DNA of 64,000 bases, taken from positions 1-64,000 of the forward strand of contig JAPHRK010000003.1 of NCBI GenBank assembly GCA_026196105.1. The letters run 5' to 3'. This stretch comes from Rhodospirillales bacterium (GTDB lineage Bacteria; Pseudomonadota; Alphaproteobacteria; Rhodospirillales; JAPHRK01). The notes under the pieces were generated by a model, which was not told the DNA's origin, searched no databases, and was given only the letters and a program-made list of their open reading frames with translations. A program made the translations under genes and the position numbers. Shown here piece by piece: positions 8,310-33,637 of the stretch (the stretch's first letter is position 1; every line of letters starts with the position of its first letter).

Positions 8310-8346
8310 AAAAAGGCCCGCCCGTATTATTCAGGCGGGCCTTTTT
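8310..8346 (+). terminator. Strong intrinsic terminator after hflC
   Basis: AAAAAGGCCCGCC pairs perfectly with GGCGGGCCTTTTT around an 11-base loop. The T-run on the plus strand makes it a textbook rho-independent terminator 16 bases past the hflC stop. Confidence 0.92.
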
Positions 8347-11677: not shown

Positions 11678-11702
11678 GAGCGGCAAATTAAATTTGCCGC
11701 TC
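11678..11702. terminator. Bidirectional terminator between the DUF1015 gene and mreB
   Basis: GAGCGGCAAATT and AATTTGCCGCTC form a perfect 12-bp palindrome around one base. It lies between two convergent genes and can serve both, although the T content is inside the stem. Confidence 0.7.
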
Positions 11703-26312: not shown

Positions 26313-29300
26313 TTATATTACGAAATACTTAGCTGCCGGGTGGTGGACCACGATGGCGGCTGTCGATTGTTCAGGGTGGAGTTGCTCTTCATCTGCCATG
26401 GAGAGGCCGATTTTGTCAGCACCGAGAAGCCTGAGTAAATCGTGTTGCTGGGTCATATCTGGACACGCGGGATAACCGAAGGAATAACGGGACCCGCGAT
26501 AGCGTTGCTTGAGAATTTTAGCCATTTCCCGAGGATCATCACCTCCCATGCCAAGAGATTCACGAATACGTTTGTGAACATATTCAGCCAAGGCCTCTGC
26601 CATTTCTACTCCATAGCCATGGAGGTAGAGGTAATCTTGATATTTATCGTTCTCAAACCACTTGCGAGCGACTTCAGAGGCGTGTTGCCCCATGGTAACT
26701 ACTTGCAAGCCAATGACATCCCGTTCTTGGTCCGCAACATCGCGGAAGAAGTCCGCAATACACAGGCCGCCTTCTTTGGCTTGGCGGGGGAAGGAGAAAC
26801 GAGTCGCTTCGGTGGTACCGTCTTCTTCAAACAGGACTACCGTATTACCTTCTGAAGCACACTTCCAAAACCCATAAGCAGCTTGAGGTTTGAGAATGTT
26901 TTCTTTCTCACAACGCTCCGTCAGATCGTGCATGATGGGGCGAACTTCTTTAGCTGCCCATTCGTTATATTCAGCAAGTTTACGACCAGCTTTTTTGTAT
27001 CCCCATTGGAATTGAAACAGAGTGTTCTCATTAATAAAAGGAACCAGGGTTTTTAGTGGAACATCTTCAATAATCTTCGCGCCCCAGAAGGGAGGCTTAG
27101 GAACCGCAATTCCTTGAGGAAGCTCTTTTCTTAGGATGCGTGTTTCTTCCACATCAAGAGGTCTGAGAGCATTCTCTACAGGCATCATGTCGAGAACTTC
27201 GCGCCCTTTTTTCTTTGATGAAGAAGTTTTCTTCTCAATCGTATTCATTTCCCCTTTGATAGCTTTGTCCATTAAGTTTAGGCCATCGAAAGCATCGCGT
27301 GCATAGGCAACTTGGTCTTCTGCATAAGCGGCGGAGCAATCCGTTTCAACATACTTGCGCGTCAGGGCTGCACCGCCAAGAAAGACAGGGACTTCAAGTC
27401 CTTGGCGGGTCATTTCTTCAAGATTTTCACGCATGATAACCGTAGATTTCACAAGTAAACCTGAGAGGCCAACAGCATCGGGTTTGTGTTCATTAACGGC
27501 GTCAATAATGGTGTTGATTGGTTGTTTAATACCAAGGTTGATTACCTTGTAGCCATTGTTGGTCAAGATGATGTCGACAAGATTTTTACCAATATCATGG
27601 ACGTCGCCTTTAACCGTTGCCAGTACTAAGGTGCCTTTTTCACTGCCTTCGGTTTTGTCCATAAATTGCTCAAGGTGCTTCACGGCAGCCTTCATGGTTT
27701 CAGCAGATTGAAGAACAAAAGGCAGCTGCATTTTGCCAGAACCAAATAACTCGCCAACTACCTTCATGCCATCAAGGAGTAGGGTGTTGATAATGGTTAG
27801 AGGATCGTATTTTTCACGGGCTTCATCTAGCTCATCTTCCAAGCCATTGCGGTCACCTTCAATAATGCGCAGCTTAAGACGTTCTTCAACTGTCTCGGGC
27901 CGAGCTTTGGCTTTTTCTTCTTCTACATTGCGGTCTTGGAAAAGAGCAATAAAAGCGTGAAGAGGGTCGTAGCCTTCTCTGCGACGGTCAAAAATTAAAT
28001 CCTCTGCGGCTTTAACTTCTTCAGGAGCAATGGTGTGCAAAGGTTTGATTTTGGAGATGTGAACGATAGCACCCGTCATGCCCCTCTTAACGGCATGGTC
28101 TAGAAAGACGGAGTTCAGTACATGGCGAGCGGCTGCTTTGAGACCAAAAGAGATATTTGAGAGTCCAAGGATAATTTGAATTTCAGGTAGCTCTTTTGCG
28201 ATGCGCTCAATGGCATCCAAGGTTTCAATACCCAACTTACGGTCATCGTCATTGCCAGTGCAAATGGTGAAAGTTAGAGGATCAATCATCAGGTCGCTGG
28301 CAGGAAGGCCGCCTGCTACGACAAAGTCATGGAGGCGTTGGGCAATCTTTATTTTACCTTCTACATCTTTCGCCATGCCTTCTTCGTCAATGGTCAGGGC
28401 AACAACAGCCGCACCGAATTTTTTAGCCAAAGCGAGACGGTCTGTGGCGGGTTGTTCACCATCTTCAAAGTTGATGGAGTTAATGATTGCTTTTCCGCCA
28501 TAAAGTTTAAGGGCCGCATCAATAACAGGGAGCTCGGTGGAGTCGATAACCAATGGTGTGGTCACAGCGCCACGGAGTTGGCTCACCATTTCTGTCATAT
28601 CTGCAACTTCGTTACGACCAACAAAAGCGGTGCAAACGTCTAGAGATGTTGAGCCTTCGCGGGCCTGATCTTTGCCGATGGCAACGCACTGATCCCAATC
28701 TTCAGCTTCTTGCAGATCACGGAATTTTTTGGAGCCATTGGCATTGCAACGTTCACCAATGGTGAAAATGGCATTTTCCTGACGCAAGCTTGCTTGTGTG
28801 TAAAGTGAAGCGGCAGAAGGGACCCAGTGGAAATTACGCTCAACCGGAGCCGGGCGAGGATTGCCGTTACGACGGAGCATTTCGTCGAGAGCCTTAATGT
28901 GACCTGTGTTAGTGCCACAGCAACCACCGATCATATTAACACCGTCTTCTACAACAAAACGCTCGACCCAACGGGCGAGTTCTTCTGGTGAGAGGGGGTA
29001 GTGGGTTTGACCGTCGACCAGTTCTGGTAACCCGGCGTTTGGTTGAACCGAAATCAGGTGAGGCCAGTTTTCGGATAGCCACTTAACATGCTCTGCCATT
29101 TCCTGAGGTCCGGTGGCGCAGTTAAGCCCTATCAAATCCACATCCATAGCTTGGATTGCTGTAGCTGCTGCGGCTATATCAGAGCCAACCAAGAGGGTTC
29201 CGGTAGTTTCAACTGTAACCTGGATGAAAATCGGCATTTCTTTGTTAAGGCTTTGTCGAGCTTTCTTAACAGCATTGATGGCAGCTTTGATTTGCAACGG

Positions 29301-29780
29301 GTCTTGGCATGTTTCAATCAAACACGCATCAACACCGCCTGCGATGAGCCCTTCGGCTTGAGGAATAATGCCGGCCTCAAGGGTGTCGTAATCAATATGG
29401 CCTAGAGTTGGGAGCTTGGTGCCAGGTCCGATATCACCAATTACAAAACGTTGGCGATCATCAGCGAAAGACTCAGCGGCTTCCCGGGCCAGCTCTGCTG
29501 AAGCCTTACTTAAAGTGTAGGCTTCTGTCTCTAATCCAAACTCAGCCAGAGTAATAGTTGAAGTCCCAAAGGTATTGGTGATCACCATATCTGAGCCAGC
29601 GCCGTAATATCCGCGATGGATATCGCGAACGATATCTGGACGGGTGCGGGTCAGAATATCTGTACAGTTTTCCTTGCCAGCAAAGTCTTTTTCAACATCC
29701 AGGTCCAAGGCTTGAACCATGCTGCCCATGCCGCCATCGCAGAGGAGAACAGATTTCTTTAGGGCTTCTAATAAGGTCAT
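26313..29780 (-). CDS. metH: Cobalamin-dependent methionine synthase
   Basis: 1155 aa, a full-length MetH. Order: homocysteine-binding barrel with zinc cysteines (GLNCATGP and GGCCGT), methyltetrahydrofolate-binding barrel (from about 350), cobalamin-binding cap and Rossmann domain with the DxHxxG motif in KGDVHDIGKN, and the SAM-binding reactivation domain (RYRGSRYSFGYPACPD near the C-terminus). It transfers the methyl group of 5-methyl-THF to homocysteine. It is the last gene of an operon with metF and an ArsR-methyltransferase regulator, with 15 bases between metF and metH. It implies a B12 supply. Confidence 0.97.
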   Translation of the reverse strand: MTLLEALKKSVLLCDGGMGSMVQALDLDVEKDFAGKENCTDILTRTRPDIVRDIHRGYYGAGSDMVITNTFGTSTITLAEFGLETEAYTLSKASAELAREAAESFADDRQRFVIGDIGPGTKLPTLGHIDYDTLEAGIIPQAEGLIAGGVDACLIETCQDPLQIKAAINAVKKARQSLNKEMPIFIQVTVETTGTLLVGSDIAAAATAIQAMDVDLIGLNCATGPQEMAEHVKWLSENWPHLISVQPNAGLPELVDGQTHYPLSPEELARWVERFVVEDGVNMIGGCCGTNTGHIKALDEMLRRNGNPRPAPVERNFHWVPSAASLYTQASLRQENAIFTIGERCNANGSKKFRDLQEAEDWDQCVAIGKDQAREGSTSLDVCTAFVGRNEVADMTEMVSQLRGAVTTPLVIDSTELPVIDAALKLYGGKAIINSINFEDGEQPATDRLALAKKFGAAVVALTIDEEGMAKDVEGKIKIAQRLHDFVVAGGLPASDLMIDPLTFTICTGNDDDRKLGIETLDAIERIAKELPEIQIILGLSNISFGLKAAARHVLNSVFLDHAVKRGMTGAIVHISKIKPLHTIAPEEVKAAEDLIFDRRREGYDPLHAFIALFQDRNVEEEKAKARPETVEERLKLRIIEGDRNGLEDELDEAREKYDPLTIINTLLLDGMKVVGELFGSGKMQLPFVLQSAETMKAAVKHLEQFMDKTEGSEKGTLVLATVKGDVHDIGKNLVDIILTNNGYKVINLGIKQPINTIIDAVNEHKPDAVGLSGLLVKSTVIMRENLEEMTRQGLEVPVFLGGAALTRKYVETDCSAAYAEDQVAYARDAFDGLNLMDKAIKGEMNTIEKKTSSSKKKGREVLDMMPVENALRPLDVEETRILRKELPQGIAVPKPPFWGAKIIEDVPLKTLVPFINENTLFQFQWGYKKAGRKLAEYNEWAAKEVRPIMHDLTERCEKENILKPQAAYGFWKCASEGNTVVLFEEDGTTEATRFSFPRQAKEGGLCIADFFRDVADQERDVIGLQVVTMGQHASEVARKWFENDKYQDYLYLHGYGVEMAEALAEYVHKRIRESLGMGGDDPREMAKILKQRYRGSRYSFGYPACPDMTQQHDLLRLLGADKIGLSMADEEQLHPEQSTAAIVVHHPAAKYFVI

Positions 29781-29795: not shown

Positions 29796-30740
29796 TTAAG
29801 CTTGACGTTTGGGGCGGACACCCAGGATATGGCAAAGAGCAAAGGCAAGGTCGGCGCGATTGAGCGTATAGATATGGAAATCTTTAACTCCATTGGCATG
29901 AAGGACTCGGCATTGTTCTGCTGCTACGGTCGCGGCAACTAGCGTCCGGGCTTCAGGTTCATCGCTTAAACCTTCGAATAGTTCACTTAGCCATTTGGGG
30001 ACATCAGTGCCACACATTTTGCTCATACGGACTACTTGATCAATATTAGTTACAGGAAGAATCCCTGCAACAATCGGGGCAGTAATCCCGGCAGTCCGAG
30101 CTTGGTCAACAAACCTTAGATAGTGGTCAACATCAAAGAAATATTGAGTAATCGCTCGGCTTGCTCCGGCATCAATTTTGGCTTTTAGGAAGTCCATGTC
30201 CTTTGATGCACTTATAGCCTCAGGATGAACTTCTGGATATGCGGCAACACTGATTTCAAAATCAGCGATCTTTTTGAGTCCCTCAACCAAATCGTTTGCA
30301 TAAGCATAACCTTCTGGGTGAGGCTGATAAGTACTAGCCCCTTCAGGTGGGTCGCCCCTAAGTGCAACGATATGGCGTACCCCTTCTTCCCAATATTGGC
30401 GAGCAACGTCGTCGATCTCTTGTTTTGTTGCGCCAACACAAGTCAGATGAGCTGCAGGCTTAAGCGTGGTTTCATTAACGATACGGGCCACGGTGGTATG
30501 GGTCCGTTCACGCGTGCTGCCTCCAGCACCATAAGTCACTGAGACAAATGCTGGGTCGAGGGGTTCTAGTCGCTTGATTGACGACCATAGTGTCTGTTCC
30601 ATCTTCTCTGTTTTCGGCGGGAAAAACTCAAAGGATACTTGGACATCGTTTGGGAGCGGTGAGGCAACCGAAACGGCTGAAAGATCATGTCCGGTAAGAT
30701 CACCGGCTTGTTGTTTTAGTTGTTTGCTTTTGAGCCCCAT
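29796..30740 (-). CDS. metF: Methylenetetrahydrofolate reductase
   Basis: 314 aa FAD-dependent TIM barrel. Visible motifs are SFEFFPPKTEK near the start, FVSVTYGAGGSTRERT, and HLTCVGATK. It makes 5-methyl-THF, the methyl donor used by the MetH encoded directly downstream. Only two bases separate it from the upstream regulator gene, so the three genes are co-transcribed. Confidence 0.96.
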   Translation of the reverse strand: MGLKSKQLKQQAGDLTGHDLSAVSVASPLPNDVQVSFEFFPPKTEKMEQTLWSSIKRLEPLDPAFVSVTYGAGGSTRERTHTTVARIVNETTLKPAAHLTCVGATKQEIDDVARQYWEEGVRHIVALRGDPPEGASTYQPHPEGYAYANDLVEGLKKIADFEISVAAYPEVHPEAISASKDMDFLKAKIDAGASRAITQYFFDVDHYLRFVDQARTAGITAPIVAGILPVTNIDQVVRMSKMCGTDVPKWLSELFEGLSDEPEARTLVAATVAAEQCRVLHANGVKDFHIYTLNRADLAFALCHILGVRPKRQA

Positions 30741-30742
30741 GG

Positions 30743-31711
30743 TTATTCGCTCCAGTCAGGGGTTTGAGAAGGTGTTTCAGCAGGCATTTCTGCAAGCCAG
30801 ATCACGACGGTAAGAGGCGTGCCGGGGAGCTCAACTTTTTCTTTGGGCTCCATCCCGACAAGACGGCTCCAGGCAAAGATGTCTACATTTGAAAAACCAA
30901 GGCGGCGGTGACGTTGCTCGCTGCGCAGGTCTTCTAGTTGGTGAGAGGCGAAATCAACAATTGCCACCCTTCCACCAGGGCGAAGGACTCTTGAAGCTTC
31001 GCTAATTACCCGAGCAGGGTCATCGGCATAGTGTAAAACTTGGTGGATTAAAACCGTGTCAAAGCTATTGGCCCCAAAGGGGAGTTGGTACATGTCGCCT
31101 TGGCGTACTGTGCAATTGGTCCGTTTATCTCGCTCCAGATTGGCTCTGGCAATAGCGAGCATGTCTCGAGACATATCAATACCAACGGCGGTTTTTGATG
31201 ATTGTGAAAATAATTCCAGCATACGGCCTGGACCTGTACCCACGTCCAGCAGATCACCAAGATCATTTTTACCCTTTGATATCAACTCAGAAAGGGCTTT
31301 CTCAACGGCTTCTTCTTCAACATGGAGGGAGCGCATTTGGCTCCACTTTGCGGCGTTCGCATCAAAAAATTCTGAAGCTGCTCTAGCTCTTTCTTCTTTA
31401 ACTTTTCCAAGGCGCTCTAGGTCGAGGCTTAATGCAGAGTCGTTATCTGGGAGGAGGGCAAATATAAGTTTTGCGAGGGTTTCGCCTTTGCCATCACGGA
31501 CAAGGCGATGAAAAACCCAAGAGCCTTCAGGGAGGCGCTCCAATAGCCCCGCATCACAGAGAACCTTTAGATGCCGTGAAACCCGTGGTTGGCTTTGCCC
31601 AAGTATTTGAACTAGTTCACTTACAGTAAGATCGCCTTGAGCGCATAGAGAGAGCAAGCGAATACGAGTCGGTTCTGCTGCTGCACGAAGAATTGCGAGA
31701 ATTTCTTCCAT
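30743..31711 (-). CDS. ArsR-family regulator fused to a SAM-dependent methyltransferase domain (SahR-like)
   Basis: 322 aa from the ATG at 31711. Residues about 1-90 are an ArsR winged helix (EPTRIRLLSLC, SQPRVSRHLKVLCDAGLL recognition helix). Residues about 130-320 are a class I methyltransferase with motif I LLDVGTGPGRMLELF and LRPGGRVAIVDF. ArsR-type SahR regulators are known to sense S-adenosylhomocysteine and repress methyl-cycle genes. Placement as first gene before metF-metH, behind a long inverted repeat, supports that role. Whether the methyltransferase domain is a SAM/SAH sensor or a real enzyme cannot be read from sequence. Confidence 0.85.
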   Translation of the reverse strand: MEEILAILRAAAEPTRIRLLSLCAQGDLTVSELVQILGQSQPRVSRHLKVLCDAGLLERLPEGSWVFHRLVRDGKGETLAKLIFALLPDNDSALSLDLERLGKVKEERARAASEFFDANAAKWSQMRSLHVEEEAVEKALSELISKGKNDLGDLLDVGTGPGRMLELFSQSSKTAVGIDMSRDMLAIARANLERDKRTNCTVRQGDMYQLPFGANSFDTVLIHQVLHYADDPARVISEASRVLRPGGRVAIVDFASHQLEDLRSEQRHRRLGFSNVDIFAWSRLVGMEPKEKVELPGTPLTVVIWLAEMPAETPSQTPDWSE

Positions 31712-31743
31712 GTTTCCAAGGGGCTCCAATTTAAATAGCACTA

Positions 31744-31797
31744 CAAGACGCTATAAAAGATATAAAGATATGTTTATATCTTTTATAGCGTCTTGTG
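31744..31797. promoter_or_regulatory. Perfect 24-bp-arm inverted repeat upstream of the methionine operon
   Basis: The left arm 31744-31767 and right arm 31774-31797 are exact reverse complements around the 6-base loop GATATG. The core ATATAAAGATATGTTTATAT looks like an ArsR-type operator. It lies 32 bases before the start codon of the regulator gene. The arms are longer than one dimeric site needs, so it may hold overlapping operators or fold as a hairpin in the leader RNA or as a cruciform. Confidence 0.75.
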
Positions 31798-32111
31798 CAA
31801 GAGTTTTTTTTGCCGTGATAATTATGCAACATTTATTTTCTGACCTCTGTGAATAAAGGTGGAAAACTGGTTATTGGGTAGGGTACTGTGATAGATGAAT
31901 AAATGATTAAAAACGAGGCTGTTTGGCACATTTTGGGTGTTTTGTGCAGCTTTATACATGTAGCGGTCATTCGTTATGTCTTATTTTGACGTCAACAGTG
32001 ACAGGGTAAAAAAAGCTACATATACTAATTCGAGATAGCGTCTGTAATAATGCCCCCTTATATTTAGGTGGTACGTGTATATTTTGTGATGAAAACGGTT
32101 CGGTCATTTTG
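31798..32111. other. Gap between the met operon control region and mlaA
   Basis: Contains a T8 run (31804-31811) seven bases past the long repeat, then AT-rich sequence leading to mlaA. No supported ORF, RNA gene or clear promoter boxes seen. Confidence 0.4.
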
Positions 32112-32966
32112 ATGGTTTTTTTACATAAGTGGATTGTTCCAAAATTTATGATTGTTGTCTTGTTGGTGGCGATGATGAGTTTTGCCAACTTGGCTCCAGC
32201 ACAAGCGACAGACAATATTGCTGAGCAAAATCAAGAATCTGAGATTGATGTTGATCCTCTTGAAGGATTCAACCGGGTTATGTTTCAGGTTAATCTCGCC
32301 TTAGATACCTTGTTTCTTAGGCCAGCTGCTGAAATGTATACCAAGCTTTTGCCTCCGATTTTTCAAACTGGGATCAGAAACTTCTTAAGAAATTTACGGG
32401 CGCCAATTGTTTTAGCTAATGACCTTTTGCAAGGTGACTTCGACAGAGCAGGCGATACGACGGCACGTTTTCTCATTAATACAACAGTTGGTATTGGAGG
32501 TTTGCGTGATCAAGCTGGCGATTGGGGATACCTATATCATAGTGAAGATTTTGGGCAAACAGCTGCAGTCTGGGGCGTCGGGAGTGGGGCATATTTAGTC
32601 CTTCCTATTATTGGCCCCACCACGCCTCGTGACGGTATTGGTCGAGTGGTTGAATATTTTGCTGATCCGTTTAATAACTGGGCCTGGAACCAAGACCATG
32701 ATAGTTATCCAACCATTCGCGGTGCATTAACGGCGACTGAAGCGAGAGCTGCTAACATGGAAACTCTCGATGATTTGCAAAGAACCTCGTTGGATTATTA
32801 TGCGACAATCCGCAGTCTTTATTTACAACGTCGTGCCAATGAAATTCGCAATGGTGAAACATCACAAAAAAGCCCCTCTCCTGGAATAACCTATAACTTC
32901 GATACAGAAGCCCCTGGTTATGAGCAAAGGGCAGAGCAAGAAGAAGATACTTCGAAGACAAAATGA
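32112..32966 (+). CDS. mlaA: MlaA (VacJ) family outer-membrane lipid-asymmetry protein
   Basis: 284 aa from the ATG at 32112. A signal peptide occupies residues 1-30 (cleavage near AQA-TDN). The VacJ motifs DPLEGFNRVMFQVN (about 46-59) and YLVLPIIGPTTPRDGIG (about 160) are clear. MlaA removes mislocalised phospholipids from the outer leaflet of the outer membrane and hands them to MlaC. No lipobox cysteine follows the signal, unlike the E. coli lipoprotein. It overlaps mlaC by four bases (ATGA), so the pair is coupled. mlaFEDB are not in the window. Confidence 0.92.
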   Translation: MVFLHKWIVPKFMIVVLLVAMMSFANLAPAQATDNIAEQNQESEIDVDPLEGFNRVMFQVNLALDTLFLRPAAEMYTKLLPPIFQTGIRNFLRNLRAPIVLANDLLQGDFDRAGDTTARFLINTTVGIGGLRDQAGDWGYLYHSEDFGQTAAVWGVGSGAYLVLPIIGPTTPRDGIGRVVEYFADPFNNWAWNQDHDSYPTIRGALTATEARAANMETLDDLQRTSLDYYATIRSLYLQRRANEIRNGETSQKSPSPGITYNFDTEAPGYEQRAEQEEDTSKTK

Positions 32967-33637
32967 TGAAATATGTAAGCCCAAAATCAATTGCGGCCTT
33001 AATCGGCCTTTTCCTCTTTGTCTTTTTACCTTTTGGTTTCGTCTCAGATGGTCAAGCTTTGGCTAATGAAGAGTTTGGCAAAGGGGCAGAAACGTTTGTC
33101 CAATCTCTGGCTGATGAGGCCATTGATACCTTAGCGGTTAAAGAAATCCCCCAAGCAGAACGGGTCAAACGTTTTCGTACCATGCTAGGTAAGCACTTTG
33201 ATGTTAACGCCATTGGGCGATGGGTTCTTGGGCGTTATTGGCGTAAAGCGTCGAAAGCACAGCAAGCAGAGTACCTGGTTCTCTTTAGAGACCTTATTGT
33301 GGCAACCTATGTTAATCAATTTGCTGAACTAACTGGTGAACGTCTTAAGGTGACACAATCGTTGACCAGAGAAGGTAAAAAAGACGCGATTGTCCGCTCT
33401 GAAATTATTCGTACTGAAGGTCAGCCTCCGATTAAACTCGATTGGCGTGTTCGGGCACCAAAAGGGAATTTCAAGGTAGTTGATGTCGTTGTTGAAGGTG
33501 TCAGCATGAGCCAAACCCAGCGCTCTGAGTTTGGTTCAGTCATCAAGCGTGAAGGTGGTGAAATTGATGGGCTTTTGGCAGCCTTACGCAAGAAAACAAA
33601 ATCCTTACGCATAGCTGAAAAAGGGCCAGCCAGTTGA
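32963..33637 (+). CDS. mlaC: MlaC family periplasmic phospholipid-binding protein
   Basis: 224 aa with a signal peptide (residues 1-33, cleavage near ALA-NEE) and the MlaC/Tol-Tol-Ttg2D fold pattern (RFRTMLGKHFDVNAIGRWVLGRYWRKAS, VVDVVVEGVSMSQTQRSEF). It shuttles phospholipid between MlaA and the inner-membrane MlaFEDB complex. The start overlaps the mlaA stop. A terminator follows 40 bases downstream. Confidence 0.93.
   Translation: MMKYVSPKSIAALIGLFLFVFLPFGFVSDGQALANEEFGKGAETFVQSLADEAIDTLAVKEIPQAERVKRFRTMLGKHFDVNAIGRWVLGRYWRKASKAQQAEYLVLFRDLIVATYVNQFAELTGERLKVTQSLTREGKKDAIVRSEIIRTEGQPPIKLDWRVRAPKGNFKVVDVVVEGVSMSQTQRSEFGSVIKREGGEIDGLLAALRKKTKSLRIAEKGPAS

Follow-up and report, generated by a model that had tools for sequence, protein, structure and literature searches.

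As described by Leyn et al. (2014; PMC4239095), the regulator SahR of Alphaproteobacteria binds a 20-bp palindrome and has sahR, ahcY, metH, metF and metK as core targets, membership of the core regulon being defined there by presence in >70% of genomes. Evidence for autoregulation by SahR comes from Ensifer (PMC8877191). Template switching has been described to perfect quasipalindromes in E. coli (PMC7202029) and to create perfect RNA stems (PMC8794818).

Compared to the regulon as given in PMC4239095, the locus analysed here is alike in that the gene of an ArsR-type regulator shares an operon with metF and metH, that a 20-bp palindromic operator lies upstream of the regulator gene and that a second operator is present at ahcY, the operators being likened by length, palindromy and targets. 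It differs from the same account in that no operator was found before metK and that the sahR operator forms the middle of a perfect palindrome of 54 bp. The known cases of quasipalindrome template-switch mutation (PMC7202029, PMC8794818) differ from the present one, which is deduced from spacing in distant relatives and would have taken place at a transcription-factor operator, with probable displacement of the promoter. Nothing relevant was found when the literature was searched for the motif string. On balance, we consider it likely that the locus carries an ordinary autoregulatory SahR operator, to which a lineage-specific template-switch extension was added that displaced the promoter.

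The operon and its palindrome

The window, i.e. the whole stretch of 64,000 nucleotides (64 kb) that was analysed, contains on its minus strand the genes sahR (30743..31711), metF (29796..30740) and metH (26313..29780), in this order. The regulator gene codes for a protein of 322 aa with an ArsR HTH domain and a SAM-methyltransferase domain (PF01022, PF08241); the ArsR-type DNA-binding domain matched both PF01022 and NF033788 above cut-off. The second gene encodes a methylenetetrahydrofolate reductase (PRK09432 and TIGR00676 above cut-off) and the third a B12-dependent methionine synthase (TIGR02082 above cut-off). In 105 of 110 homologous loci, metF lies directly downstream of the regulator gene and shares its strand. 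Based on domain architecture, gene context and operator, we infer that the regulator is SahR. Divergent from the operon, a gene for an MlaA lipoprotein is followed by an MlaC-like gene (32109-33637, plus strand), and about 310 nt of intergenic sequence lie between the palindrome and the MlaA gene.

The perfect inverted repeat spans positions 31743-31796, upstream of the ArsR-methyltransferase gene on the minus strand, and 31 nt separate it from the ATG of this gene at 31711. Its arms, ACAAGACGCTATAAAAGATATAAA and TTTATATCTTTTATAGCGTCTTGT, are complementary at 24 of 24 positions and enclose a 6-nt loop, GATATG. The 54-base palindrome with a 6-base loop reported in the initial annotation was thus found again, with the correction that the coordinates given there (31744-31797) were off by one. 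It is by far the strongest repeat in the 64-kb window, in which the runner-up among perfect repeats has arms of 13 bp. By our own arithmetic, the naive chance of arms of at least 24 bp around a loop no longer than 12 nt is about 3e-9 in 64 kb.

Two smaller structures were observed elsewhere in the window. A perfect hairpin with 13-bp arms at 8310-8346 (AAAAAGGCCCGCC...GGCGGGCCTTTTT) resembles a bidirectional intrinsic terminator, and a perfect palindrome with 12-bp arms, GAGCGGCAAATTAAATTTGCCGCTC, is located at 11678-11702.

Core operator and outer arms

Homologues of the regulator were collected both from GTDB genomes and from 60 genomes belonging to the same order. The 20-bp motif ATATAAAGATATCTTTATAT was found upstream of nearly all of the approximately 108 homologous ArsR-methyltransferase genes. 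At the centre of the palindrome, positions 31760..31779 (minus strand) read ATATAAACATATCTTTATAT, which has the same length of 20 bp as the operator of the relatives and a single mismatch to their consensus. A position weight matrix (PWM) built from 86 non-redundant sites of the relatives gave this core a score of 33.2, compared to a median of 30.7 for the relatives; elsewhere in the 64-kb window, the highest score was 2.7.

Only one other good site was found when the genome was searched by pattern. This SahR-like sequence, ATATAAAGAAGTTTTTATAT, is situated about 98 nt before ahcY (locus L034, 1501-1520; G000:C68:27272-27291) and scored 20.8 with 3 mismatches. The ahcY site is closely followed downstream by a -35-like CTTGCC (TTGCCT, 17 nt, TATGAC), a placement with respect to the promoter that differs from that of the site at sahR; a gene similar to D-3-phosphoglycerate dehydrogenase (serA) is divergent to it. 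Near metK no site was detected, the best PWM score being -10.7. The scan of the genome for the core, which the initial annotation had proposed for ahcY and metK among others, hence met with success upstream of ahcY and with none upstream of metK. With the threshold of >70% of genomes that applies to the core regulon (PMC4239095), metK is typical of the SahR regulon without being required of each member. Weak genomic sites that differed from a degenerate pattern at 2 positions (L115-L119) showed no excess over a control with the reversed pattern and were taken as chance matches.

Conservation in about 100 relatives, the published 20-bp SahR palindrome and the second site before ahcY support the prediction that the palindrome centre is the SahR-type operator of sahR-metF-metH. 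The same evidence upholds the earlier proposal of an ArsR/SahR-type operator for this operon.

The outer parts of the palindrome behave differently. On the minus strand, the upstream outer arm ACAAGACGCTATAAAAG (31780..31796) is the perfect reverse complement of the downstream outer arm CTTTTATAGCGTCTTGT (31743..31759). The former would contain about 15 nt inserted between the -35 element and the core, and the latter would represent the original flank and template, with its first 6 nt lying in the weakly conserved flank. In the relatives, column conservation is very strong across the 20-bp core and becomes weak in its flanks, between about -6 and +6, with AA at -3/-2 and a TTTAT-like sequence at +2 to +6. 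Beyond a flank of about 6 bp the columns are near background, apart from scattered weak A/T-rich columns. The arms had initially been described as about twice as long as needed, which fits a conserved operator of 20 bp (weak conservation up to about 32 bp) compared to a repeat of 54 bp. The outer 9 bp, ACAAGACGC, were not found in the relatives and are peculiar to this genome; in a DNA search of 317 genomes of the order, all matches stayed within the core and its immediate flank.

The TTTAT-like sequence downstream of the core is weakly but clearly conserved among the relatives and is possibly part of a -10 element or a third half-site. The consulted text on SahR makes no mention of such conservation at +2 to +6.

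An arm length of this kind is exceptional among 100 sites: outside the central six bases the arm measures 24 bp here, followed by 15 and 12 bp, with a median of 5 bp. A general outer inverted repeat among the relatives was rejected, since the mean flank symmetry was not clearly above that of permuted pairings and only 3 sporadic cases occurred. These symmetric runs of 7-8 bp in 3 of 86 relatives, against 0.3 expected, fit sporadic template switching, and could alternatively reflect occasional selection for longer arms.

The same three cases, together with the weakly conserved AA at -3/-2 and TTTAT at +2 to +6, also speak for a compound operator, in which the arms hold extra half-sites and two SahR dimers, or SahR and another protein, bind cooperatively for tighter repression. 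The inner part of the arm (TATAAAAG / CTTTTATA) looks like a half-site extended by a single base. A weak extra half-site may be present. However, the PWM revealed no further SahR site within the palindrome (scores of -1.3 and -2.3 against 33.2 for the core), the outer positions are not conserved in the relatives, pairwise flank symmetry is without general excess, and the ahcY site of the same genome is devoid of outer arms. Since weak conservation extends only to about 6 bp, the ahcY site is arm-less and no second site was found, the outer arm is, as judged from these comparisons, outside the conserved operator. The compound operator suggested in the initial annotation is thus not supported, with neither a second PWM site in them nor the outer 9 bp in relatives, and we regard it as unlikely.

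Upstream of sahR in four relatives (L113, L042, L016 and L107), the SahR core is surrounded by outer inverted repeats of their own, which are unrelated in sequence, for example TTCATATCC...GGATATGAA in L016 and ACAGATAG...CTATCTGT in L107. Their unrelatedness suggests repeated independent events.

Promoter position and origin of the arms

A putative -35 element, CTTGCAC, is located at 31795..31801 (minus strand) with an A-tract just upstream, and is proposed from the position of CTTGCA in relatives. The upstream regions of 99 relatives contain 12 occurrences of CTTGCA within 60 nt, all 12 of them 6-9 nt before the core. The TTG of the -35 element peaks at the same distance of 6-9 nt, with 6 as the commonest spacing. 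Six of the relatives with CTTGCA share the spacing of 6, and in three of these (L044, L046 and L083) CTTGCAC immediately adjoins the core. In the window, CTTGCAC is found 21 nt before the core, and deletion of 15 nt of the left arm brings it to 6 nt; this displacement by 15 nt is judged against distant relatives, none of which belongs to the same family. A flank-composition model placed the left flank at percentile 0.86 both as it is and after the deletion. As the model does not separate the two states, the case for an insertion rests on the position of CTTGCA.

The candidate -10 element, TATAAA (31773..31778, minus strand), lies inside the operator core with a 16-nt spacer from TTGCAC. Since TTGCAC matches the E. 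coli consensus TTGACA at only 3 of 6 positions, the TTGCAC/TATAAA pair was not listed in a generic sigma-70 scan. With this pair, the transcript start is predicted to fall inside the palindrome.

The predicted start bears on a further suggestion of the initial annotation, namely an RNA hairpin as a second level of control. In this reading, the repeat would act in the sahR-metF-metH leader, stabilising the mRNA or modulating translation. Folded as RNA, the repeat reaches -33.6 kcal/mol (z -8.0), and it is positioned 31 nt before the ATG. A strong fold must be expected of any such repeat, however, and a start inside the palindrome would leave the 5' arm untranscribed and only one arm in the transcript, which makes a leader hairpin unlikely. 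In addition, a scan revealed no sigma-70-like promoter upstream on the minus strand and no terminator, the relatives have no such hairpin, the repeat is without a U-run, and the ribosome-binding region is left free. A riboswitch or other known RNA was rejected, as no Rfam match was obtained, and no intrinsic terminator was found. Control by an RNA hairpin is consequently given very little weight.

Mobile hairpin elements and amplification chimeras, too, typically have perfect mirror arms, but a dispersed palindromic element or an assembly artefact (inverted chimera) that landed on the operator by chance is the least credible explanation and highly improbable, because neither arm nor palindrome has a second copy in DNA and pattern searches of the whole 3.9-Mb genome (82 contigs, 99% complete), the sequence continues unbroken into sahR on one side and into the intergenic region on the other, and the palindrome centre is the conserved operator. 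The single copy also excludes the dispersed genome-wide element that the initial annotation had set against its own reading.

The preferred reading, an ordinary SahR operator extended by template switching, is in line with the finding that the perfect arms adjoin a pre-existing shorter palindrome, as expected of such a switch. During replication, the short palindromic core would have folded, and the polymerase would have used the downstream flank as a template and added its reverse complement. The resulting inverted duplication would have inserted about 15 nt between the -35 element (CTTGCAC) and the core, and the extra 17 bp per side would be a lineage-specific by-product. We infer that this event is to be dated only to the present lineage. 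The insertion would have separated the old pair of -35 and -10 elements and created a new one, in that the -35 element came to lie 16 nt away from the TATAAA of the core; a promoter with its start inside the operator would thus have been kept. In the resulting arrangement, a SahR dimer would bind the 20-bp core overlapping the promoter and cause repression, and rising S-adenosylhomocysteine would release it, as has been reported for SahR elsewhere.

It is conceivable, and we put this forward only tentatively, that the template switch rebuilt the promoter in a single step, parting the old -35/-10 pair, making the new one and moving the operator from the spacer to a position over the -10 element and the start, and that SahR repression of the methyl cycle was thereby changed in this lineage.

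The locus adds a predicted SahR-controlled operon from another family of Alphaproteobacteria. It also cautions against taking every long perfect hairpin in front of a gene for an RNA element. It is a clean natural candidate for the seeding of longer inverted repeats by a transcription-factor palindrome, with displacement of a promoter.
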